From Corynebacterium gallinarum (GTDB taxonomy: Bacteria > Actinomycetota > Actinomycetes > Mycobacteriales > Mycobacteriaceae): a stretch of 64,000 nucleotides of DNA. Made by a program: the position numbers and the translations under genes. The notes under the pieces were generated by a model. That model did no database searches, was not told the DNA's origin, and saw only the letters and a list, made by a program, of their open reading frames with translations. The stretch spans positions 124,001 to 188,000 of the forward strand of contig NZ_JACSPR010000001.1 in the NCBI RefSeq assembly GCF_014837045.1. The letters are read 5' to 3'. How positions within the stretch are numbered: the first letter of the stretch is position 1; each line of letters opens with the position of its first letter. Positions 28,149 to 40,289 of this stretch are shown here, piece after piece.

Positions 28149-29990
28149 TTATCCCAGCAGCGCGTCTACAAAGCCCTCCACCTCGAACGGGGCGAGATCA
28201 TCCGCACCCTCGCCGAGGCCGACGAGCTTGACCGGCACACCGAGTTCCTCCTGGACCTGGAAGACGATGCCACCCTTGGCGGTGCCATCGAGCTTGGTCA
28301 GGACAACACCGGTGATATCCACGACATCGCGGAAGATGCGGGCCTGCTGCATACCGTTCTGGCCGACGGTCGCATCGAGGACCAGCAGGACCTCATCCAC
28401 AGGGGCCTTCTTCTCCACCACACGCTTGACCTTGCCCAGCTGATCCATGAGACCGGTGGAGGTGTGCAGACGACCGGCGGTGTCGATCAGCACCACATCG
28501 GCCTGCTGCTCGACACCCTTGGCCACGGCATCGAAGGCCACGGACGCCGGATCGGCGCCTTCAGCTCCGCGGACGGTGGTGGCACCGACACGACGGCCCC
28601 AGGTTTCAAGCTGATCCGCGGCGGCCGCACGGAAGGTATCGGCGGCACCCAGCAGCACCCTGTGCCCCATGGACACCAGGACGCGGGCGAGCTTGCCGGT
28701 GGTGGTGGTCTTACCGGTGCCGTTGACACCGACGACCAGGACCACCGCAGGCTTGCCCTCGAATGGCATGGCCCGGATGGAGCGGTCGAGGTCGGGGCGG
28801 CAGGCGTCGATAAGCGTGGCCCGCAGCATGGCGCGCGCCTCGGCCTCGCTGGAGACACCGTGCGCGGCGATCTTGTCGCGCAGTTCCTCAACCACCCGCA
28901 TGGTCACGGCGGCGCCGAGGTCTGCCTTGATCAGCATGGCCTCGATGTCCTCCCACGCGTCCTCATCCAGGTCGCCGGCGGTGAGGATACCCAGCACGGA
29001 CTTACCGAAGACATTCTGGGAGCGGGCGAGGCGACCACGCAGCTTGCCGATACGGCCGGCCGCCGGTGCGATCTCATCGAGGGGTTCCGGCGCGGGCTCG
29101 GGAGCAACCTCCGGGACCGGGGTCTGCTCACGCGCAGCCTCCGCGAACTCGGCGGTGACCTGTGCGGCCTCTGCGGCCTCCACAGCCTCATCCTGCACCA
29201 GGTTGGACTCCGCCGGGGTCTCCTCCTCCGGCAGCGCCGGCTCCTCCACAACCAGTTCCTCCACTGGCACCTCGGGCGCCTCAGCCAGCGCGGCCGCGGC
29301 ATCCACGGAGAGCTCCTCGGGGATGGCCTCCGGTTCGGCGGGGGCGGCGGGGGCGGCAGGCTCGACAGGCTCGACCTCGCGCTTGTCGACGTCGCCCCCG
29401 TCCCACTTGACCGACTTTCCGGTCGGGGCAGTCGGGGTGGGTTCCGCGGGTGCTGCAGGCTCGGTCGGCTCAGGTACCGCGACCGGGGTGGTCTCAGCCG
29501 CGGGTTCGATAATGGGTTCTGCGACCGGCTCGTCGTGGATCACGGGCTCAACCGGGGTGGCGTCCTCGCGGATCTCCTCGGGTGCCTGTGGCGCCTCCGG
29601 AACATTGACCGGATCGGCCTGGGGGGCAGGCTCCGGCGTGGGGACCGGTTCCGGGAGGATCGGGGTCACCCCGGTGGAATCCTTCTCCCGGGTCCGGTCC
29701 GTGGTGTCCGGTTCCCACAGCTGCTTGGCCTGTGGCGGGTTCAGCTTCTGATCATCGCGGAGCACCGGCTCCTTTTGATCAGCGGGTTTCGCCGGGGCGA
29801 AGTTGAACCCGCCCTGGGCCTGGTAGTTACCGGATTTCTCCTGCTGGGTGAGCTGTTTCTTCTCCTCCTCAGCCGGTTTTTCAAAACTAACGGTCTTTGA
29901 TTCTGCCCGCTTCCTACCCACGATCAACACGATGATGATCGCCAGTATGACGAGGAGAACTAATCCTACAATCCAAAAAGTCGCATCCAT
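28149..29990 (-). CDS. ftsY: Signal recognition particle receptor FtsY
   Basis: FtsY is the membrane receptor of SRP. With the ATG at 29990 the protein has 613 residues. It begins with a membrane anchor (FWIVGLVLLVILAIIIVLIVG) and then has a very long acidic, Pro/Ala/Glu-rich region (about residues 30-300). The NG GTPase domain follows, with VGVNGTGKTTTTGKLARVL, DTAGRLHTSTG and TKLDGTAKGG. The true transmembrane anchor and long acidic linker are typical of actinobacterial FtsY and unlike E. coli FtsY, which lacks a spanning helix. Confidence 0.95.
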   Translation of the reverse strand: MDATFWIVGLVLLVILAIIIVLIVGRKRAESKTVSFEKPAEEEKKQLTQQEKSGNYQAQGGFNFAPAKPADQKEPVLRDDQKLNPPQAKQLWEPDTTDRTREKDSTGVTPILPEPVPTPEPAPQADPVNVPEAPQAPEEIREDATPVEPVIHDEPVAEPIIEPAAETTPVAVPEPTEPAAPAEPTPTAPTGKSVKWDGGDVDKREVEPVEPAAPAAPAEPEAIPEELSVDAAAALAEAPEVPVEELVVEEPALPEEETPAESNLVQDEAVEAAEAAQVTAEFAEAAREQTPVPEVAPEPAPEPLDEIAPAAGRIGKLRGRLARSQNVFGKSVLGILTAGDLDEDAWEDIEAMLIKADLGAAVTMRVVEELRDKIAAHGVSSEAEARAMLRATLIDACRPDLDRSIRAMPFEGKPAVVLVVGVNGTGKTTTTGKLARVLVSMGHRVLLGAADTFRAAAADQLETWGRRVGATTVRGAEGADPASVAFDAVAKGVEQQADVVLIDTAGRLHTSTGLMDQLGKVKRVVEKKAPVDEVLLVLDATVGQNGMQQARIFRDVVDITGVVLTKLDGTAKGGIVFQVQEELGVPVKLVGLGEGADDLAPFEVEGFVDALLG

Positions 29991-30338
29991 GCCCTCTATA
30001 GTGGCAGGTTTCCTTGTCGCGCACACCGCTAGCCCACGGTTTTTGCTCCATTTCCTGAGTAAGACATGCAGAGGCACGGATCAATGCGTGGAAAACGCAG
30101 GGTGCTGATCATGCCATGGTGGAATGATTAGGTCGATGGATATCTTCTCGGGGGAGCATCTGTGGACGGTACGGAGAGCACCGCCGTTACAGGATCAGCT
30201 CACCTGAGTCCTGACAGAAGTGATGACCTGACGCGGTATTCCGGTTGACCGCACCACGAGATCGGGGCTCTTATCGCACCGGTTTCCGGATACCACCAAC
30301 CCTGTGAGGGATGCCTTCCCCGTGACTTGTACAAGATG
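29991..30338. other. Region upstream of ftsY and the toxin-antitoxin pair
   Basis: About 350 bases between divergent genes. I see the antitoxin promoter at its right edge and no other supported feature. Confidence 0.4.
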
Positions 30339-30344
30339 TACGCT
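30327..30344 (+). promoter_or_regulatory. Promoter and probable operator of the antitoxin-toxin operon
   Basis: A -10 hexamer TACGCT (30339-30344) lies six bases before the ATG at 30351, so the mRNA is probably leaderless. The palindrome TTGTACAA (30327-30334) and the inverted pair GTAC-N5-GTAC (30329-32 and 30338-41) overlap it, as expected for autorepression by the antitoxin. Confidence 0.5.
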
Positions 30345-30350
30345 AGGGGC

Positions 30351-30602
30351 ATGAGTACCACCGTCACTCCCAGCGAGTTCCGTCAAGAGCAGAGCCACTT
30401 CCTCGAGATTGCACAGCGCGAACCCGTCGCGATTCTCAGCAGGGGAACCCGCCGTCGCGCGGTGGTGGTGTCCCCGGATTTCTATGACCGTGCCGTCCAG
30501 GCCCTGGAGGATATCGAAGATATCCGCGCGGCCGCCGCTGCCCGTCAGGAGACCGGCACCATCTCCCACGAGGACCTCAAAGCCGAACTCGGACTTGACT
30601 GA
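30351..30602 (+). CDS. Antitoxin, Phd/YefM family
   Basis: This 83-residue protein starts at the ATG at 30351. The N-terminal half has the Phd/YefM fold (VTPSEFRQEQSHFLEIAQREPVAILSRG, then RRAVVVSPDFYDRAVQAL), which dimerises and binds the operator. The acidic C-terminal part (DIEDIRAAAAARQETGTISHEDLKAELGLD) would wrap the toxin. It precedes a RelE-type toxin by 11 bases. Confidence 0.87.
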   Translation: MSTTVTPSEFRQEQSHFLEIAQREPVAILSRGTRRRAVVVSPDFYDRAVQALEDIEDIRAAAAARQETGTISHEDLKAELGLD

Positions 30603-30613
30603 CCCACCAGTTC

Positions 30614-30886
30614 ATGACAGATTCGCGCTACTCCATCACATATAAACCCTCGGCTGCCAAAGCCCTCCGCAAACTGGATCGACAGCACCAACGATCGATC
30701 ATCGCTGCTATCGATGCCCTGGCGCATGATCCCCGCCCCGACGGCGTGAAGAAGCTACAGGGCGGCATGGGTGAATACCGCCTACGGGTAGGTTCATACC
30801 GGGTTATCTATGACATCAATGACGGGGAGTTAATCATCCTGGTTCTCCACCTCGGCCACCGCAGAGAGATCTACCGGAAACTCTAA
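30614..30886 (+). CDS. RelE/ParE-superfamily toxin
   Basis: This 90-residue basic protein has the RelE fold: YSITYKPSAAKALRKLDRQ, LAHDPRPDGVKKLQGG, YRLRVGSYRVIYDINDGELIILVLHLGHRREIY. The Arg/Tyr residues near YRLRVGSYRV and the C-terminal HRREIYRKL are typical of the RelE mRNA-cleaving branch and not of gyrase-poisoning ParE. No ribosome binding site is evident, so translation probably depends on the antitoxin gene. Confidence 0.87.
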   Translation: MTDSRYSITYKPSAAKALRKLDRQHQRSIIAAIDALAHDPRPDGVKKLQGGMGEYRLRVGSYRVIYDINDGELIILVLHLGHRREIYRKL

Positions 30887-31004: not shown

Positions 31005-34000
31005 TTAGTCCACCAACCCGGGGTTGGTCACGCCCAGCACCATGGCCTCCGCGGAGATGAGATCCCCGGTGACCAGGTCCGGAACCAGATCGGCGATCCG
31101 GCTCCACCCACCGGCGGCGCGGTCGAGGGTACGGGTCTTGCCGATGAGATCATGGGCGTGCAGACGCGAGGAGAGGGCGAACACCAGGGAGACCACCGGG
31201 GTCAGCGCCCACATGTTCTCGGCCTTGTTGGTGTCCACACCATCGAGCTTGTCGAAACGGATGCGCGCCGAGGAGTACAGCTGACGCTGGGTGCCGCGCA
31301 TGGCGCGCAGCAGATCCACCGCTGTCTTCATCAGGCCCTCTGCCTGGAGGACCTCATTGAGCTCCGCACGTTTTTTGAAGGTCTCGAACACCGCCATGAG
31401 ACGGGTGTTGTCCGCCATGAGCGGGCCCGGGACGATATCGGCGTTGCTGAAGAACATCTCCAACAGTGCGGCCTGCTGGGCGGCGTTCATGCTGGCGATC
31501 GCCACGGTGGACTGATCCACACAGGCGGTATCCAGGGTGGAATCACGTCCGGTGGCCAGGGTGGACAGGATGTTGCGTCCCGCGACCTCCTCCAGCTGGC
31601 TCAGGATCGGCAGCAGCGGGGTGCGGTTGCCCAGCTCCTCGGCCTCCTTGAACGCGCCGGGCAGTGCGCCCAGCAGCTGGAGGGTACCGATCCACGCGGT
31701 GCGGTGGATCTCGGTGGCCGGGGTGTCGGTGGTGAACGGGGAGGCCGCCAGACCGGAGGAGATCACCTTGCCGGGCAGGGCATGCGCCGGCACCAGTGAG
31801 GCGGACAGGCCCTTCAGCGCCGCCGCCGGGTGGGCACGCAGCGCGGAGTGGACGACCGGCAGGTGCTCGGTGTTGCCCTGCTCCGACCAGATGTGGGAGA
31901 CATCCCACAGCGCGGGCACCACGGCCTCTGAGACCGGTGGTTCCTCCACTGCCCCGCCGAAGAAGGCGGAGAGCTGGGCGAAGTCCTCGGACTGGTTGGC
32001 GTAGTAGCCCTCCTGCTCCACGGTCACCGCGGTGGAACCCGGGGACAGTGGGGTCAGCAGAGTGGTGAACGGATCGGCGGTGTGCAGCTGGACCAGCAGG
32101 GGGCCGGCCCCCACCAGGCCCTCCGGCAGGGCGACGCGCTCACCGGTGACCGGGATCTCCACGGCCCGGACCCACGGTGCGGTGGTCGGCCAGATCCAGG
32201 CGCCGAGCTTGCGTCCGGCGACCAGGTCCTCGAAGACCAGATCCGTGCCGTCGATGGTGATCCCGGTGCAGTGCTCCACCTTGTCCAGGACGGCGATGGT
32301 GACGCTGAGTCGGCGGTCAGCGCGCAGTTCCGTCCACTCGAATTCGATGGAACCACGCGGCACCACCAGCGTGCTGGCGGCGATCTCCTTCATCGGGGCG
32401 ACCAGGGTGCGTCCGTTGTCCGGGGTGGTCATCCGGATGGTGCGCAGGGGCGAACCATGGTGGTTGCGCACACTGATGCGGGGATCACCGACCTGGACAC
32501 CGGTGCGGATACGCAGCTCACCGGCACCATCAAGATCCCGGGGACGGCACACCGTGCGGGTGACGCGCCACATCGGGGGTTCGGTGGTCACCGGCAGCTC
32601 GATGGCGATCTGTGGTGGGACGAACCGCAGCGGCATCTGGTCACCCTCGTCGGTGGTGACCACGAACCCGGCATTCGGGTCAGTTGCGCCGACGCCCACG
32701 AGGCGGGGCTCCGCGGTGAAGTGCTTCTCACCGGGGCGCACCCTCAGGGTGGCCTCGGACAGGCCGGCGGTGGTGGGGATGCGGAAGGAACTCTCCGCAC
32801 CGACCATCTCCAGCTCGGTGGTCATGCCCTCGACGATGGCGTACTCGTGACGGAAGGATTCATTGCGTGGTCCACGCAGGCGGACCAGGTACTCCCCCAC
32901 CCACGGGGCGTCGTAGGCCTCGGGGTCGAAGATGTAGAACACGCCGCCCTCAGCCGGGACCTCCAGGGGTTCCGGTTCCGCGATCTCATCACCGGCGCTG
33001 CCGACACCGGCATAAGCGGAGATGGACAGCATCCAGGTCTCATCCCGCCCGCTCAGCGTCGGGGGGAATTCCGCGATGAGCGATTCGGCGTGCACGGCCA
33101 ACCCGGTGGTGGAACGCACATGCGGAACCAGCGCCTGGTGCGGGTGGTGGAAGGCCACGCGACGACGCGGGTCGATGCAGCGGATCTCCTTGTTCACCTT
33201 CAGTGAGGCCAGTCCACGGGCATCCACACGCGAACACGTCCAGGAGGTCCACCCCTCCACCTCGAAGGAGTCGAGCACCGGGATCGGTTCCCCGGTGACC
33301 ACGTCCTCCAGGGTGGATTCGGTCGGCGCCAGCACATAGATCTCCTGGTGGTGCAGGGAGAGCTTATCGGTGAGGTTCTCACCACGGGCGGAGAACACCA
33401 GCACCGGATCGGTGAAGTCAACCACCGGCACCACCCAGGTGATCTGGTTGGTGGTGTCGGTGACGGTGGTTTCCCGGATCTGACGTTCCAGCGTCACATC
33501 CAGGGCCTCGGAGTACCCGGAGGTGTCCCCCCAGGCGCGGCCGGTGCTGTAGATACGGGTCGTGCCCTCCAGGCTGACCCGCCAGGTGACCTCACCGTCG
33601 TTGACACGCTGTTCGGGTAGACGCAGGCAGACCTTGCGCCGCTCGGCGTCGAGGATCAGTCGGGGACGCAGCTCACGCAGGGCAACACCCACGGAGTTCT
33701 CCCGGTCCTCGGTGCCCACGGGGCGTTCACGCAGTTCCGCGACGAAGAGTTCATCCACCATGGCGGGCAGGGTGGTCTCCCGCTCACGGTCGGGCCAGGA
33801 CGTCGGATGGGACTGGGCGAAGTCGCACAGTTCACGCACGCCGCCGAGCAGGGCATCCGCCCACTGCGGGGCCAGCCTGCGGACGGTATCGAACATGGCG
33901 GGGAACTCCTCCGAACCGGTTTCCACCGCGGTGAGCACCGCCGCCACCTCCCTTCCGGTAACGCCACAGTGCAGGGAGAGGATCTCGATCGGATCGGCCT

Positions 34001-34385
34001 CCTCGGCGGGGACGGTAAGGCCGGCCTTCACCAGCAGCCTCTCCACCTCATTGGCCATCACAGCACCCTGATCGGGTTCCAGACCGAGGCCACCGAAGTA
34101 CTCGGTGAAGAAGTCCTGCGGGTCCACCACGCGCGCGGCCCGGGAGACCAGGCTCGCCACAGTGAGACCGGGTGTCATGTCCAGCAGTTCGGTGATATCC
34201 GCGCCTGCAGCGAGCTGGCGGGACAGGAAGGTGCCGTAGAAACGGTCGATGCGCTCCAGTTCGTCGCTACGCAGCTGGGCCTGGGCGAAGTACTCCACCC
34301 CGGCCAGCCGCTGGGTAAGTTCCAGCTCGGTCTGGGATGCCCATCCGAGTAAAGAATCATTGAAATCGGCGATGCCACCAGGCAT
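31005..34385 (-). CDS. Large protein of unknown function between ftsY and smc
   Basis: This 1126-residue protein is well supported as a gene: GGGGAGAG lies seven bases before the ATG at 34385, it has no stop over 3.4 kb, and a terminator follows. I recognise no domain. By eye it has a helical N-terminus (about 1-260), a long beta-rich middle (about 260-830) with tandem immunoglobulin-like or sandwich-like units and frequent WRV, GEYLVRLRG and WVRAVEIPV strands, and a helical C-terminal third (about 850-1126). There is no signal peptide and no membrane segment, so it is probably cytoplasmic. It lies beside a toxin-antitoxin pair and between highly conserved genes. A scaffold, defence or large adaptor role is speculation. 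Confidence 0.75.
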   Translation of the reverse strand: MPGGIADFNDSLLGWASQTELELTQRLAGVEYFAQAQLRSDELERIDRFYGTFLSRQLAAGADITELLDMTPGLTVASLVSRAARVVDPQDFFTEYFGGLGLEPDQGAVMANEVERLLVKAGLTVPAEEADPIEILSLHCGVTGREVAAVLTAVETGSEEFPAMFDTVRRLAPQWADALLGGVRELCDFAQSHPTSWPDRERETTLPAMVDELFVAELRERPVGTEDRENSVGVALRELRPRLILDAERRKVCLRLPEQRVNDGEVTWRVSLEGTTRIYSTGRAWGDTSGYSEALDVTLERQIRETTVTDTTNQITWVVPVVDFTDPVLVFSARGENLTDKLSLHHQEIYVLAPTESTLEDVVTGEPIPVLDSFEVEGWTSWTCSRVDARGLASLKVNKEIRCIDPRRRVAFHHPHQALVPHVRSTTGLAVHAESLIAEFPPTLSGRDETWMLSISAYAGVGSAGDEIAEPEPLEVPAEGGVFYIFDPEAYDAPWVGEYLVRLRGPRNESFRHEYAIVEGMTTELEMVGAESSFRIPTTAGLSEATLRVRPGEKHFTAEPRLVGVGATDPNAGFVVTTDEGDQMPLRFVPPQIAIELPVTTEPPMWRVTRTVCRPRDLDGAGELRIRTGVQVGDPRISVRNHHGSPLRTIRMTTPDNGRTLVAPMKEIAASTLVVPRGSIEFEWTELRADRRLSVTIAVLDKVEHCTGITIDGTDLVFEDLVAGRKLGAWIWPTTAPWVRAVEIPVTGERVALPEGLVGAGPLLVQLHTADPFTTLLTPLSPGSTAVTVEQEGYYANQSEDFAQLSAFFGGAVEEPPVSEAVVPALWDVSHIWSEQGNTEHLPVVHSALRAHPAAALKGLSASLVPAHALPGKVISSGLAASPFTTDTPATEIHRTAWIGTLQLLGALPGAFKEAEELGNRTPLLPILSQLEEVAGRNILSTLATGRDSTLDTACVDQSTVAIASMNAAQQAALLEMFFSNADIVPGPLMADNTRLMAVFETFKKRAELNEVLQAEGLMKTAVDLLRAMRGTQRQLYSSARIRFDKLDGVDTNKAENMWALTPVVSLVFALSSRLHAHDLIGKTRTLDRAAGGWSRIADLVPDLVTGDLISAEAMVLGVTNPGLVD

Positions 34386-34592
34386 GTATACACTCTCCCC
34401 GCGTGAACGCGTTCCACATTGAAACCGGCATGACAGCTGTTAGGCGTCATTGAAATGCCCTCTCACCCTACCCCACCACTGGAGTCCCGCCCGCGCAGGG
34501 AATGCCTTCCAGCCGGTCACGCAGCCGGTGCAGTAACCAACCCCACAATCACGATTGGGCAGGTCGGGGGATACATTCCAGTCCCACAGGTG

Positions 34593-37500
34593 CTACCCGG
34601 CTACCGTGGCGACGGTATCCGCGCGCTCCATGCGCTGACTGATCACGCGGGTCACCCCGTCGCCACGCATGGTCACGCCGTAGAGCACATTGGCCACATC
34701 CATCGTGGGTTTCTGGTGCGTGATCACGATCAGCTGGGAATCGCGGCGCAGTTCCTCGAACAGGGCGATCAGGCGACGCAGGTTCACATCATCAAGTGCG
34801 GCCTCCACCTCGTCCATGACGTAGAACGGGCTGGGGCGGGCACGGAAGATGGCCACCAGCATCGCCAGGGCGGTCAGGGACTTCTCACCACCGGAGAGCA
34901 GGGACAGGCGTTTGACCTTCTTGCCCGGTGGCCGGGCCTCCACCTCGATGCCGGTGGTCAGCAGATCATCGGGGTCGGTGAGCAGTAGTCGGCCCTCGCC
35001 ACCCGGGAAGAGGGTGTCGAACACCTTCGGGAACTCGCGTTCCACATCGTGCCAGGCATCGGTGAACAGCTGCAGGATCCTGGCGTCCACCTCCTCGATG
35101 ACACCGCGCAGATCGGCGCGGGCCTGTTCCACGTCACGCACCTGGGTGGCCAGGAACTCATAACGTTCCTCCAGTGCCTTGAACTCCTCCAGCGCCAGGG
35201 GGTTGACCTTGCCCAGGGATGCCAGGTCCTTCTCCGCCTGTTTCAGCCGGGCACGCTGGACGCCCTCGTCGAAGTGTTCGTCGGGGGTGTAGTCGCGCAG
35301 CAGCTCCGCCACCGGGACACCCAGTTGTTCGGTGATCTTGGCAACGGCCTCCTCCATGCGTACCTGCGCCTGGGAGCGGGCCAGTTCCAGGGCATGGGCG
35401 TTGTCATGCAGACGGTCCAGCTGGCGTCGCGCGGCGCTGACGGCATCGCGTGCCCGGGCCAGCTGTGTGGCCAACGCCGCCTTCTCCCGGTTGTAGGCAT
35501 CCCGGTCCTTCGTCGCCTGTGCCAGGGCAATGGAGACACGTTCAGCCACATCGCGGGCACCACGCTGGACGGTGGCCGCCAGGTCGGTGCGGCGACGGCG
35601 TTGCGCCACGGCCTGCTCATGTCGCATCTTCGCCTGACGCTCCTGCTCGGCCTGCCGACGCAGACCATCTCCCCGACCCCGGACCTGCACGGCGCGTTCC
35701 TCCGCGGTGTGCAGCGCCAGTCGTGCCTCCATCTCCATGGCCCTGACCTGGGCCAGTGCTGTGGTGGCTGCATCCCTGTCCCGGGTGGAGGGTTCCGTCA
35801 TCTCGGTGTCATCCTCGATGCGGGAGAGACGGTCGACGATCTCCTCCAACTCCATGCGCAACTGGTCCCGGCGGTGCTCCGCGTCGGTGAGCCTGCCGGA
35901 GTGGCGGTCACGTTCGGATTCGACCGTCCGGTGCTGCCGGTCCAGCCGGGTGATGTCACGGGTGATGGCTTCCAGCGCCATGTCGGATTCCCGGAGGGCA
36001 GCGGCCCGCGCAGCAGCCTCGATGCGGGTGTGCTCCGCGGCGACCCGCGCCCCCTCCACGGTTCCGGCGAGGTCACCCAGCACACGGGACACCTCAGCCA
36101 GTTGTGCGCGGGCATCATCGATCTGGGCGGTGATCTCCACCGTCGAGGTGCCGGTGCCGAGCTGGATCCACCCGGAGCCTGCGACCACGCCCTCCCGGGT
36201 CACCGCGCGCAGGCGTGGATCATCGTGGATGACGGTGCGGGCGGTGGGCAGGTCGTCGACAAGCACCACGTCGGCGAGCAGGCGGGTGACCGGGCCGACC
36301 ACGGTGGCGTCCAGGGACACATGATCCAGCAGCCAGGTGGCCCCGGTCGGCAGGACCGCGTCGAGACGCCACGCCCTCTGTTCGTCCGTCGCGGCGACGA
36401 GAACGGTGCGGGACACGCCAGCGTCGACAAGCTTGTCGACGACCTCCCCGGTCACCACACCCGCGAGCGCGTCGGCGTGCGCCCCGAGCGCGGCGGCCAG
36501 AGCCTTGTCGACGCCATCCTGTGGACGCACAAGCTGGGCCAGAAGCGGATAGTCAAGCACCTGTTCCGCTGATGAGCGGGGGCGGTTCTGGGCGAGGGTG
36601 TCGATGCGTGATTCCAGTCGGGACACCTCCCGCTCCAGTTCACCACGCCTGCCACGCAGTTCCTCGAGACGGGTCTCGGCCATGTCGGCCTCGGCGCGCG
36701 CCTGGGTGTGCGCGGTGTCCAGGGGATCACGCCCGGAGAGGATCTCCGCGTGGCGCTGCTCCGCGCGTCGGCGTTCCCCCTCCGACTCGAGGACACGCTG
36801 GTTGAGCTCCGCACGCTGCTCGCCGAGACGCTCCACCTCATCCTCGGCAGCCTGCAACCGGGTGCGCAGGGATTCCTCGCCGGCCAGCAGACGGACGACA
36901 CCCTCCCGGCGGTCAGAGATCGCGCGGACCTGGGCGAGGTGTTCACGTTCCGCCTCCCGGGCTGCCTCCGCCCGGTCCTCGGCCTCCTCCCGGATGGAGT
37001 CGAGCCGCTCGGCGGCCATCTCCACCTGCATCTCCAACTCCTCCAACTCCCGGTCGGCCTGTTCCGCACGGCGCAGCAGGTCATCGGGGTCGGGGCCGGT
37101 GTAGGCGGTGTCCAGCACCCCGGAATTGGCCCGGTCCGCGGCGATACGCATGGTTGCCGAGACCCGTTCCGCCAGGGAGGACAGATCAAACCAGAGCTGC
37201 TGGGCCTGTTCCGCCCGCGGGGTGATCTCGGCGAGGTGCAACTCCAGCTCCGCCTGGGTGCCGGCGGCCTCCTCGAGTGCCTCCCGGGCTGTCTCCACCT
37301 GGTCGCGGATCATCTTCTCGCGGTCGGTGGAGGTCTCGAGTTTCTCCGAGAGCCTGACGATCTCAAACCCGGCGATCTGGAACCGCGCATCACGCAGATC
37401 CGCCTGGACGGTTGCTGCCCGGCGTGCCGCCTCGGCCTGACGCGCCAGGGGTTTGAGCTGTCGACGCAGCTCCTCCGTGAGATCCATGAGGCGGTCGAGG

Positions 37501-38060
37501 TTGACCTGCATGCCCTGGATTTTGCGCTGGGCCTTCTCCTTGCGACGCCGGTGCTTGAGCACACCGGCGGCCTCCTCGATATAGGCCCGGCGTTCCTCTG
37601 GGCGGGATTCCAGGATCTCGGCGAGCTTCCCCTGGCCGACCATGATGTGCATCTCCCGGCCGATGCCGGAATCCGACAACAGTTCCTGAATATCCATGAG
37701 CCGGGCACGGGCACCGTTGATCTCATACTCGCTGGCGCCGTCCCGGAACATCCGGCGGGTGACGGAAACCTCGGTGTAGTCAATCGGCAGGGCACCATCG
37801 GAATTGTCGATGGTGAGGGTGACCTCCGCGCGACCCAGCGGTTTCCGGTCACCCGCACCGGCGAAGATCACATCCTCCATCTTGCCGCCACGCAGGGTCT
37901 TGGCGGACCCCTCCCCCATGACCCAGGCCAGGGCGTCCACGACATTGGACTTGCCGGAACCGTTCGGGCCCACCACGGCACAGATGCCGGGTTCGAATTT
38001 CAGGGTCGTTGCAGAGGCGAAGGACTTGAACCCCTTGAGCGTCAACGATTTCAGATACAT
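34593..38060 (-). CDS. smc: Chromosome segregation ATPase SMC
   Basis: SMC organises and separates the chromosome with ScpA and ScpB. The 1155-residue protein has the N-terminal Walker A GPNGSGKSNVVDALAWVMGE (about 32-51), long coiled coils (about 170-500 and 680-1000), a hinge near residues 505-640, and the C-terminal signature LLSGGEKSLTALAML with Walker B PFYVMDEVEAALDD. The length is usual. acyP follows its start 15 bases upstream on the same strand, and the two are probably co-transcribed. The gene contains the self-complementary sequence GTCGACAAGCTTGTCGAC (36423-36440). Confidence 0.96.
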   Translation of the reverse strand: MYLKSLTLKGFKSFASATTLKFEPGICAVVGPNGSGKSNVVDALAWVMGEGSAKTLRGGKMEDVIFAGAGDRKPLGRAEVTLTIDNSDGALPIDYTEVSVTRRMFRDGASEYEINGARARLMDIQELLSDSGIGREMHIMVGQGKLAEILESRPEERRAYIEEAAGVLKHRRRKEKAQRKIQGMQVNLDRLMDLTEELRRQLKPLARQAEAARRAATVQADLRDARFQIAGFEIVRLSEKLETSTDREKMIRDQVETAREALEEAAGTQAELELHLAEITPRAEQAQQLWFDLSSLAERVSATMRIAADRANSGVLDTAYTGPDPDDLLRRAEQADRELEELEMQVEMAAERLDSIREEAEDRAEAAREAEREHLAQVRAISDRREGVVRLLAGEESLRTRLQAAEDEVERLGEQRAELNQRVLESEGERRRAEQRHAEILSGRDPLDTAHTQARAEADMAETRLEELRGRRGELEREVSRLESRIDTLAQNRPRSSAEQVLDYPLLAQLVRPQDGVDKALAAALGAHADALAGVVTGEVVDKLVDAGVSRTVLVAATDEQRAWRLDAVLPTGATWLLDHVSLDATVVGPVTRLLADVVLVDDLPTARTVIHDDPRLRAVTREGVVAGSGWIQLGTGTSTVEITAQIDDARAQLAEVSRVLGDLAGTVEGARVAAEHTRIEAAARAAALRESDMALEAITRDITRLDRQHRTVESERDRHSGRLTDAEHRRDQLRMELEEIVDRLSRIEDDTEMTEPSTRDRDAATTALAQVRAMEMEARLALHTAEERAVQVRGRGDGLRRQAEQERQAKMRHEQAVAQRRRRTDLAATVQRGARDVAERVSIALAQATKDRDAYNREKAALATQLARARDAVSAARRQLDRLHDNAHALELARSQAQVRMEEAVAKITEQLGVPVAELLRDYTPDEHFDEGVQRARLKQAEKDLASLGKVNPLALEEFKALEERYEFLATQVRDVEQARADLRGVIEEVDARILQLFTDAWHDVEREFPKVFDTLFPGGEGRLLLTDPDDLLTTGIEVEARPPGKKVKRLSLLSGGEKSLTALAMLVAIFRARPSPFYVMDEVEAALDDVNLRRLIALFEELRRDSQLIVITHQKPTMDVANVLYGVTMRGDGVTRVISQRMERADTVATVAG

Positions 38061-38420: not shown

Positions 38421-40289
38421 TTATTTTCGTAGAAGTTTCGGGGGGCTCATCTTCAACCAGGAAGACTGGGGTTCCCCGGAACCCTCAGCCGGCCCCGCAG
38501 GCTTGAGCCCGTTGTCTGTCAGATAGGTCAGGGTCCTCTCTACCGATATGAGTTTGCGCTTCAATTCTGTCACCGATGGTGCCTGCTCATCCGAGAACTC
38601 ATCAACACGTTCTAATTCTCTGCGCAGTTTTCTCTCGGCCAGGGTGAGATCCATCCAAATGGTGGGATCCTGTTCGTAACCCTTCAGTTTCCTCAAGATG
38701 ACAACTGCGAGCTGGTAGTGCACCACGGCCTCCATCGATTCCGCGGAGGTACCCGGGCTCATCATGCCCACCGCGATTCCACCACCACCCGCAGACACCA
38801 GCGTTCCAGCGGTAAGGAGACCACCGATCATCCCACCCGGGCCGAAACTGGCAAGTGCACTGGTGATGACCGCGGCACCGGCCAGTCCCGGCGCTGCCGC
38901 AAGTGCCAGACCACCAGTTGCCGCCACGATGGCCACCGCGCCGGCCCCCAGGCTCCCCCACTTCAGCAACTGGGTCTTACGACTGACAGGCGACAGAACC
39001 TTGGCGGCGGCATCCAGCGCAGTGAACACTTTGTCACCATAGTGGGAGCCCAGCCCCATCTCCGCTGTGAGCTCTTTAAGCGCTGTACGACGGACATCGT
39101 CCTTGACGGAGATTTCATAGGGGCGGATCAGATTCTCTGCGGCGAGAGCGATCACCGTGGCAACCGCATCCTCCCCGGAGAAGTGGTGGCCTGGCCGGGG
39201 TTCGGGTGCCTCCGCGTCGGGATTAGTGAAATCAAAACCGAGAGCCATGATCTGCTCCGGGATGGGCCTGTTCTGTGCTCTTTTCCTGACCTTGATGTCC
39301 TCAATGAGAGCCACCTGGACCCGTCGCAACGCCCCTGAATACCGGCTCAGCTGATCACCCTTCAGTTGCCTCTTGATCAAATGCGCATAGCGGAGTGCCA
39401 CTATGGCCATAATCTCGACACCATCAAGCGCAATGTCTATTCCCTTGTCAGCAGCAACAAGGTCCTTTGACCGGGATCCGAACAGGCCGAAACCGACAGC
39501 TTTGGCAACCAGGTCATCGGCGAGGTACTGCTCCGCATAATGAGCTTGCGTGGGGAGGAGAGGGGTCTTGACACGAACATCCAGCATCCAGGGAAAAGCT
39601 GAGGAGACTCCACGTAGTGCTGCCACCGGGTCGGTGTTACTCCAGAAATTCACCCACCACTCCAAGTTCCTCGGCGGTTCCTGGAGAACATCCGTCAGCT
39701 TATCCACCTGGAAGTGTCCATTGGCTAGAGGGCTTCCAATGGTGACCAATCCCATCACACGAACTGCTTCCGGAAGACGTCTCAGCAGATCCACTGCGAT
39801 GACTGATCCGAGGCTGTGGCCCACGATGACAATAGGACCGGACTGCGGAATATTATCTAAGACCCGTGTGAGGACGCTCGCTCTGACATTGGGAGTTGAG
39901 AGGTAGTTTTGGGCCTGCGTGAAGTATGGATTACCGAGGGCCAAGTCCACCACGGTATCTGCTATGACCCCACCATTTCCTTCTGCATGATGTCTTAGCC
40001 GGTACTCCATCGCTGCGATGCGGTGCTCGAATGCCCTGCGTTGGGATTTCGCTTCCTTGGAAGACCAATCACTGATGGTGATCTTGGGAACTTTGAGATC
40101 CTCATCAGTGCCCTGTAGGAGATCGCTGTATTTGGGTGCAGACGTCTCAACCCCATCGAGAGGTGGGAAACCCGCATGAACGAGAGCGGCTGAAAGATGG
40201 GTTTGCCACTTGTTGTCGAGATCCCCTGTCCCCACTCCATGCAGGAATAGTAACGACGGTTCTTCAGCCACGGTTTGGACTCCATTCAA
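38421..40289 (-). CDS. Alpha/beta-hydrolase fused to a glycine-rich membrane-type domain
   Basis: This 622-residue protein has two parts. Residues about 10-270 look like a lipase-type alpha/beta-hydrolase: FLHGVGTG forms the oxyanion region and IVIVGHSLGSVIAVDLL the nucleophile elbow with Ser. Residues about 440-530 are a Gly/Ala-rich hydrophobic stretch (AVAIVAATGGLALAAAPGLA and LLTAGTLVSAGGGGIAVGMM), followed by an acidic coiled coil. GC content is visibly lower than in the neighbouring genes and codon use differs, which points to acquisition. The ATG at 40289 lacks a good ribosome binding site; GTG at 40271 has GGAG eight bases before it. A lipase acting at the membrane or a cell-death effector is possible. 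It interrupts the conserved acyP to mutM interval. Confidence 0.7.
   Translation of the reverse strand: MNGVQTVAEEPSLLFLHGVGTGDLDNKWQTHLSAALVHAGFPPLDGVETSAPKYSDLLQGTDEDLKVPKITISDWSSKEAKSQRRAFEHRIAAMEYRLRHHAEGNGGVIADTVVDLALGNPYFTQAQNYLSTPNVRASVLTRVLDNIPQSGPIVIVGHSLGSVIAVDLLRRLPEAVRVMGLVTIGSPLANGHFQVDKLTDVLQEPPRNLEWWVNFWSNTDPVAALRGVSSAFPWMLDVRVKTPLLPTQAHYAEQYLADDLVAKAVGFGLFGSRSKDLVAADKGIDIALDGVEIMAIVALRYAHLIKRQLKGDQLSRYSGALRRVQVALIEDIKVRKRAQNRPIPEQIMALGFDFTNPDAEAPEPRPGHHFSGEDAVATVIALAAENLIRPYEISVKDDVRRTALKELTAEMGLGSHYGDKVFTALDAAAKVLSPVSRKTQLLKWGSLGAGAVAIVAATGGLALAAAPGLAGAAVITSALASFGPGGMIGGLLTAGTLVSAGGGGIAVGMMSPGTSAESMEAVVHYQLAVVILRKLKGYEQDPTIWMDLTLAERKLRRELERVDEFSDEQAPSVTELKRKLISVERTLTYLTDNGLKPAGPAEGSGEPQSSWLKMSPPKLLRK

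Follow-up and report, generated by a model that had tools for sequence, protein, structure and literature searches.

Type III Druantia consists of a gene for a large protein, DruH, followed by a gene for a large DUF1998 helicase, DruE (PMC13316683). DruH was characterised in 2026 as the partner of DruE (PMC13316683, PMC13192584), and it is the likely sensor subunit in this antiphage defence. The subject of this study is P0001, a 3.4 kb gene located between smc and ftsY in a window of 64,000 nucleotides (nt) from Corynebacterium gallinarum (contig NZ_JACSPR010000001.1, positions 124,001 to 188,000; coordinates below without a locus or genome label are those of the window). The gene occupies positions 31005–34385 of the minus strand, and its sequence very probably makes it a member of the actinobacterial DruH family. 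With a probability of about 0.6, P0001 is a domesticated, DruE-free DruH that much of Corynebacterium retains as a core gene, most often with smc and ftsY on either side. The main texts of the two reports make no mention of Corynebacterium. Among the titles listed, no literature on the P0001 gene was found, including by guessed Corynebacterium glutamicum locus tags, which are also absent from PMC7205459.

The DruH protein of Escherichia coli (YjiT; STY4851/ECs_5259 family; PDB: 9tud) resembles P0001 in size, at about 1100 amino acids (aa). Its structure from cryo-electron microscopy has N- and C-terminal helical regions around immunoglobulin-like (Ig-like) and β-rich parts, an arrangement that the predicted model of P0001 fits at the level of description (PMC13192584). 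Dimerisation, ATP/Mg binding and DNA nicking have been reported for the E. coli protein, and its N-terminal module includes a regulatory surface (residues ~63–137) on which the defence output depends. According to the same preprint, some residues of the protein are under positive selection, and several of these lie in the Ig-like domains (PMC13192584). The DruH–DruE pair of M. smegmatis (Mycolicibacterium smegmatis) may be likened to the P0001 family by operon anatomy and size rather than by sequence. In this species, DruH alone inhibits or kills cells and DruE neutralises it; the helicase SftH can replace DruE and also binds DruH (PMC13316683).

The open reading frame of P0001 was confirmed exactly as first annotated, with 1126 codons, an ATG start and zero internal stops in the window sequence. 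The initial annotation recognised no domain in the protein, and this also holds against curated libraries: searches of Pfam and NCBIfam returned nothing at an expectation value (E) ≤ 1, and those of PADLOC and the PDB sequences nothing at E ≤ 5. The protein is not the orphan that was then proposed, since it is homologous over its full length to DruH proteins encoded beside DruE. A profile of 35 P0001 orthologues (A1, four rows of which were omitted from alignment A6) was aligned with hhalign to 15 DruE-linked DruH proteins from other actinobacterial genera with E = 4e-117 over 1108 columns, and to seven DruE-linked DruH proteins from Corynebacterium with E = 3e-82 over the full length. When A1 was reversed or its columns shuffled, E ranged from 0.07 to 0.43 (0.43 for the reversed profile against the other-genera set). 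The length of 1126 aa compares with 971–1226 aa among DruE-linked proteins outside Corynebacterium. At the level of single sequences, the DruH of locus L104 (1106 aa, with a DruE of 1668 aa) matched P0001 by BLASTP with 24.7% identity over 907 aa (E = 5e-37) and is closer to P0001 than to the DruE-linked DruH proteins of Corynebacterium (E = 6e-8). The family identity of P0001 is thus well supported; statements on its function are conditional.

The genome that carries P0001 also encodes a paralogue (L027:9021–12686) of 1221 aa, with 22.8% identity to P0001 over 957 aa (E = 6e-33). Unlike P0001, the paralogue overlaps the start of a helicase gene. The helicase is a DEAD-box protein of 1627 aa with an MZB/DUF1998 domain that PADLOC matched to DruE1 (E = 2e-185) and DruE3 (E = 2e-163). 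The region L027:4181–12686 (contig C4) is therefore a complete DruH–DruE pair, likely a type III Druantia in which the DruH is not recognised by PADLOC. The 15 DruE-linked proteins from other genera were also compared with nine proteobacterial DruH proteins and gave a probability of 94.6 with E = 7e-8, and the alignment keeps its register from residue 75 onwards; one reversed and three shuffled controls gave at most 0.7. This link to DruH of the E. coli type is weaker than the one among actinobacterial proteins. The Corynebacterium DruE-linked set was weaker in the same comparison, with a probability of 53.5.

The P0001 loci differ from DruE-linked ones in the helicase. DruE was absent from all 22 sampled loci of P0001 orthologues (11.7–20 kb each). 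In contrast, a DruE-type helicase was directly downstream of the P0001 homologue in 21/21 genomes outside Corynebacterium. Two sets were searched, 249 genomes from the order and 248 from the genus to which G372 belongs (probably Mycobacterium); the first gave six of these genomes and the second 16, G372 being in both. Within Corynebacterium, 9/201 genomes had a DruE match at E ≤ 1e-40, and a DruH–DruE pair was directly visible in the loci of seven of these nine. In G086, the helicase adjoins a C-terminal DruH piece by position and another DruH piece is on a second contig. P0001 was present in 5/9 DruE-positive genomes and in 105/192 of the others (Fisher p = 1), so its presence is independent of DruE. 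A check had been proposed on whether the gene moves with defence genes; it does not, given this independence and a smc–ftsY site that is kept in most sampled loci. The closest relative, G145, has a DruE helicase fragment with an internal stop (G145:C3:1283379–1284314), which is the sole DruE-type match listed for that genome and is probably a decayed Druantia.

The smc–P0001–ftsY arrangement was initially described as a universally conserved gene run, which is too strong. A clear orthologue was found in 110/201 sampled Corynebacterium genomes, mostly in the order smc–gene–ftsY, where 110 is the number of genomes with a match at E ≤ 2e-107 and a larger tally of 142 at E ≤ 0.001 takes in weaker paralogues. 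This and the other genome counts refer to sampled species. Orthologues in named Corynebacterium records, one of which is C. pacaense, have 56–90% identity to P0001. Among the 22 sampled orthologue loci, both smc and ftsY were present in 16, ftsY alone in three and neither in three (L028–L030). The last three form a diverged orthologue group of ~30% identity with no smc or ftsY in 19–20 kb; in L029 and L030 the gene adjoins ilvA-like and dnaE-like genes (named from sequence). In genomes without P0001, ftsY was ≤ 1.5 kb from smc in 22/26 searched.

Among the 58 family members placed in a tree, the 17 orthologues fall into a single clade, with a Shimodaira–Hasegawa-like approximate likelihood ratio test (SH-aLRT) support of 99. 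This clade joins 20 DruE-linked DruH proteins of other genera (SH-aLRT 98), not the DruE-linked DruH proteins of Corynebacterium. The tree used 17 of 37 orthologue rows and left out L052 and L073. Proteins shorter than 790 aa were dropped from the family comparison. A topology with all DruE-linked members in one clade was rejected by the approximately unbiased (AU) test (p-AU = 6e-35; 25 chosen rows, no mixture model). At least three changes of DruE linkage are needed on the family trees, which are unrooted; the direction is taken to be repeated loss of DruE, since a history in which one and the same helicase was gained several times is less simple. We infer vertical inheritance of P0001 with loss of DruE. 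In a tree built from SMC, in which 17 genomes carry P0001 and 24 do not, the latter group together (SH-aLRT 89), which corresponds to one change. Of the 91 genomes in which no clear orthologue was seen, 24 entered this tree; its root is weak and several of its branches are long, and L149 and L150, in which smc is broken, were left out. The distribution of P0001 may thus be explained by one loss in one clade, or by one gain outside it.

The gene is under strong purifying selection and evolves like its core neighbours. The ratio of nonsynonymous to synonymous substitution rates (dN/dS) for P0001 was 0.062 against G145, 0.069 against G044, 0.074 against G046, 0.137 against G172 and 0.083 against G117. 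The values for smc, ftsY and amtB were 0.106–0.165 in the G046 and G172 pairs, with P0001 lower in both. In the G117 pair, where synonymous change is near saturation, smc (0.088) and amtB (0.103) were again above P0001. The N-terminal part was the fastest and the C-terminal part the slowest in all five pairs, and the Ig-like part, with a dN/dS of 0.05–0.13, had no excess of amino acid change. The DruE-linked DruH is far more divergent: in the genome pair G000–G172, P0001 is 81% identical and the DruE-linked protein 42%, which could also reflect a separate acquisition of the latter.

The AlphaFold model of P0001 had a mean predicted local distance difference test (pLDDT) score of 88.3 and a predicted template modelling (pTM) score of 0.82. 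Helices at residues 13–220 are followed by mostly strands at 242–789, arranged as Ig-like β-sandwiches, and by helices at 800–1120, in agreement with the β-rich centre and helical ends of the initial annotation. The C-terminal helical domain alone had a pLDDT of 91. The gene and its predicted domains are as follows.

31005–34385, minus strand: P0001, stand-alone gene assigned to the DruH family (1126 aa), with smc upstream, ftsY downstream and no DruE
33726–34385, minus strand: predicted N-terminal helical domain, residues 1–220, the fastest-evolving part (from model, conservation and dN)
31998–33725, minus strand: predicted central array of Ig-like β-sandwich domains, residues 221–796 (from model and weak multi-domain fold matches)
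31008–31997, minus strand: predicted C-terminal helical domain, residues 797–1126, the slowest-evolving part (from model, conservation and dN)

Conservation was compared with 19 DruE-linked DruH proteins of other genera, with L106 and L052 left out, using 37 orthologue rows that include one split copy. At positions that are ≥ 90% conserved in the DruE-linked proteins, the orthologues kept 9/28 in the N-terminal domain, 37/50 in the central array and 22/25 in the C-terminal domain; the N-terminal module, which does not align directly with the defence surface of E. coli DruH, is therefore the most changed part. A Foldseek search with the whole model placed weak multi-Ig proteins, such as complement and α-2-macroglobulin, in the top rows with a template modelling (TM) score of about 0.1, and no fold match reached a Z of 8 or more. 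PDB 9tud was absent from the best 50 rows, although the library may not include it. For the C-terminal domain, neither a PDB match (best E = 0.64) nor a viral one (best E = 0.58) was found. The lack of fold matches does not imply a new fold.

Further DruE-free relatives of DruH, with no DruE in 14–20 kb, make up several more clades in Corynebacterium, two of which are at recurring sites. Those of L074 and L075 are beside a sigA-like gene and those of L076, L077 and L084 are near a SecA-like gene (both named from sequence); others are in L078–L082, L085 and L073. Proteins at the two recurring sites are 1040–1128 aa in length, while a short form has 799–907 aa and one form has 1378 aa. On an E. 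coli plasmid (L162:280–7324), type II Zorya genes directly adjoin a DruH-family gene and a helicase gene; synergy of these two systems is described in a preprint. Searches by tblastn at E ≤ 1e-5 gave no match to P0001 in 50,697 phage records, and none to the L027 paralogue or the L104 DruH in 72,556 plasmid records.

The immediate surroundings of P0001 consist of the following features.

34393–34400, minus strand: Shine–Dalgarno-like GGGGAGAG, 7 nt 5′ of the P0001 ATG, read directly in the sequence
34593–38060, minus strand: smc, the usual upstream neighbour (library annotation and locus comparison)
28149–30077, minus strand: ftsY, the usual downstream neighbour (library annotation and locus comparison)
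30327–30602, plus strand: Phd/YefM-type antitoxin, strain-specific, not part of the P0001 feature
30614–30886, plus strand: ParE/RelE-type toxin, strain-specific, not part of the P0001 feature

Good expression signals had been claimed for the gene. The ribosome site GGGGAGAG bears this out, but a simple scan for promoter and terminator signals around the gene found no more than in shuffled sequence. The Phd/RelE pair does adjoin P0001, as reported at first; it lies on the opposite strand, beyond the P0001 3′ end, between ftsY and P0001. The toxin–antitoxin pair nevertheless seems unrelated to P0001: of 43 loci searched (20 with 1.5-kb flanks only), the window's own was the sole one to have it. 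Upstream of smc and an acylphosphatase gene, the minus strand at 38421–40289 encodes a 622-aa protein with weak α/β-hydrolase matches that are below the Pfam cut-offs.

P0001 differs from the actinobacterial DruH of type III Druantia in having no adjoining DruE, a mostly fixed housekeeping site, slow evolution and few of the conserved N-terminal positions. The missing helicase partner and the retention like that of a core gene suggest that an immune protein has been put to a different use or to a standing one. Several results weigh against a domesticated DruH. Neither P0001 nor its alignment gave anything significant when compared directly with the E. coli and proteobacterial DruH proteins (the P0001 set had a probability of 2.3), and since direct comparisons failed, the link to them holds solely through the DruE-linked actinobacterial set. 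The P0001 family profile did not match the DruH of PDB 9tud. The DruH3 models of PADLOC do not match P0001 either; these models match E. coli YjiT and miss 5/5 DruE-linked actinobacterial DruH proteins tested, and their silence on P0001 is therefore no evidence against membership. The M. smegmatis DruH was not recognised among 16 matches with nine published residue positions (best 5/9) and spacing patterns, and as a result its tie to the P0001 family consists of operon anatomy and size. In the G117 pair, ftsY (dN/dS = 0.066) and ffh (0.033) are under stronger constraint than P0001. With most of the conserved N-terminal positions lost, the ancestral activity may be gone. Lastly, the presence of an SftH-type helicase, a candidate partner, does not discriminate since it is near-universal in the genus.

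If P0001 is a domesticated DruH, it would still bind a protein ligand through the Ig-like array, and the helical parts would still bind DNA or a helicase. The DruE-free protein could then have a standing part in DNA surveillance or processing, in which the SftH-type helicase of the chromosome would be its partner. An SftH-type helicase (TIGR03817) was found in 199/201 Corynebacterium genomes, near topA (named from sequence) in the genome of the window, and a DruE-free DruH could thus have a partner elsewhere in nearly every genome. By analogy with M. smegmatis, the SftH partnership is the likeliest single mechanism, albeit a tentative one, with the main alternatives being that P0001 acts alone on DNA intermediates or provides a standing defence. 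The last of these would leave P0001 antiphage, with no housekeeping role, either as an always-on single-gene defence factor or with DruE or SftH shared in trans. The initial annotation allowed for a defence or a cell-envelope system, and the first of these stands insofar as DruH is a defence family; no envelope link was seen, although no search was aimed at one. The several other DruE-free DruH relatives in the genus are also in keeping with an antiphage role. Defence genes are, however, usually patchy in distribution and fast-evolving, whereas P0001 has a clade-wise presence that takes one change on the SMC tree, a mostly fixed site, no association with DruE, slow evolution that extends to the Ig-like part, and no match in the phage records. 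A purely antiphage role is for these reasons less likely.

The neighbourhood of P0001 raises a different explanation, in which the protein was recruited to work with SMC, or with the signal recognition particle receptor FtsY, in chromosome organisation or membrane targeting. The 16/22 loci with both flanking genes, and three more with ftsY, are what such a partnership would predict, but one clade lives without P0001 and the sister group L028–L030 carries the gene with neither smc nor ftsY found in the surrounding 19–20 kb. In C. glutamicum, smc and the P0001 orthologue presumably fall within cgp_2159–cgp_2340. The printed table of genes needed in a Δsmc strain by transposon sequencing has no entry across this interval (PMC11898615). 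A partnership with SMC or FtsY is accordingly quite improbable. Since the best Foldseek rows are multi-Ig proteins, P0001 might also be taken for a large adhesin-like or envelope protein with no relation to DruH beyond a likeness of its Ig-like domains; those matches are weak, and the homology to DruE-linked DruH proteins runs the full length with the helical ends included, which makes this very improbable. Scarcely credible is a functionless passenger of a decayed Druantia operon. The absence of an adjoining DruE and one split copy (G040, L038) would suit a passenger, but the matches listed have long stop-free frames and a dN/dS of 0.06–0.14 indicates strong purifying selection.

The domesticated, DruE-free DruH thus remains the preferred reading of P0001. 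Since the DruE-free relatives fall into several other clades, two of which occupy recurring sites, the conversion may have happened more than once; that Corynebacterium repeatedly made a core-genome protein for routine DNA surveillance, alone or with SftH, out of the sensor half of an antiviral system is an idea to which somewhat less than an even chance is given. As PADLOC misses the five DruE-linked actinobacterial DruH proteins tested, it may assign type III Druantia of actinobacteria to the wrong type or count too few of them. A DruH retained under housekeeping-like selection in much of a genus, with no DruE beside it, offers a natural experiment for the function of DruH by itself. In a genus whose laboratory strains are harmless, P0001 would also, if the reading is true, make the passage from immune component to core gene readily tractable.

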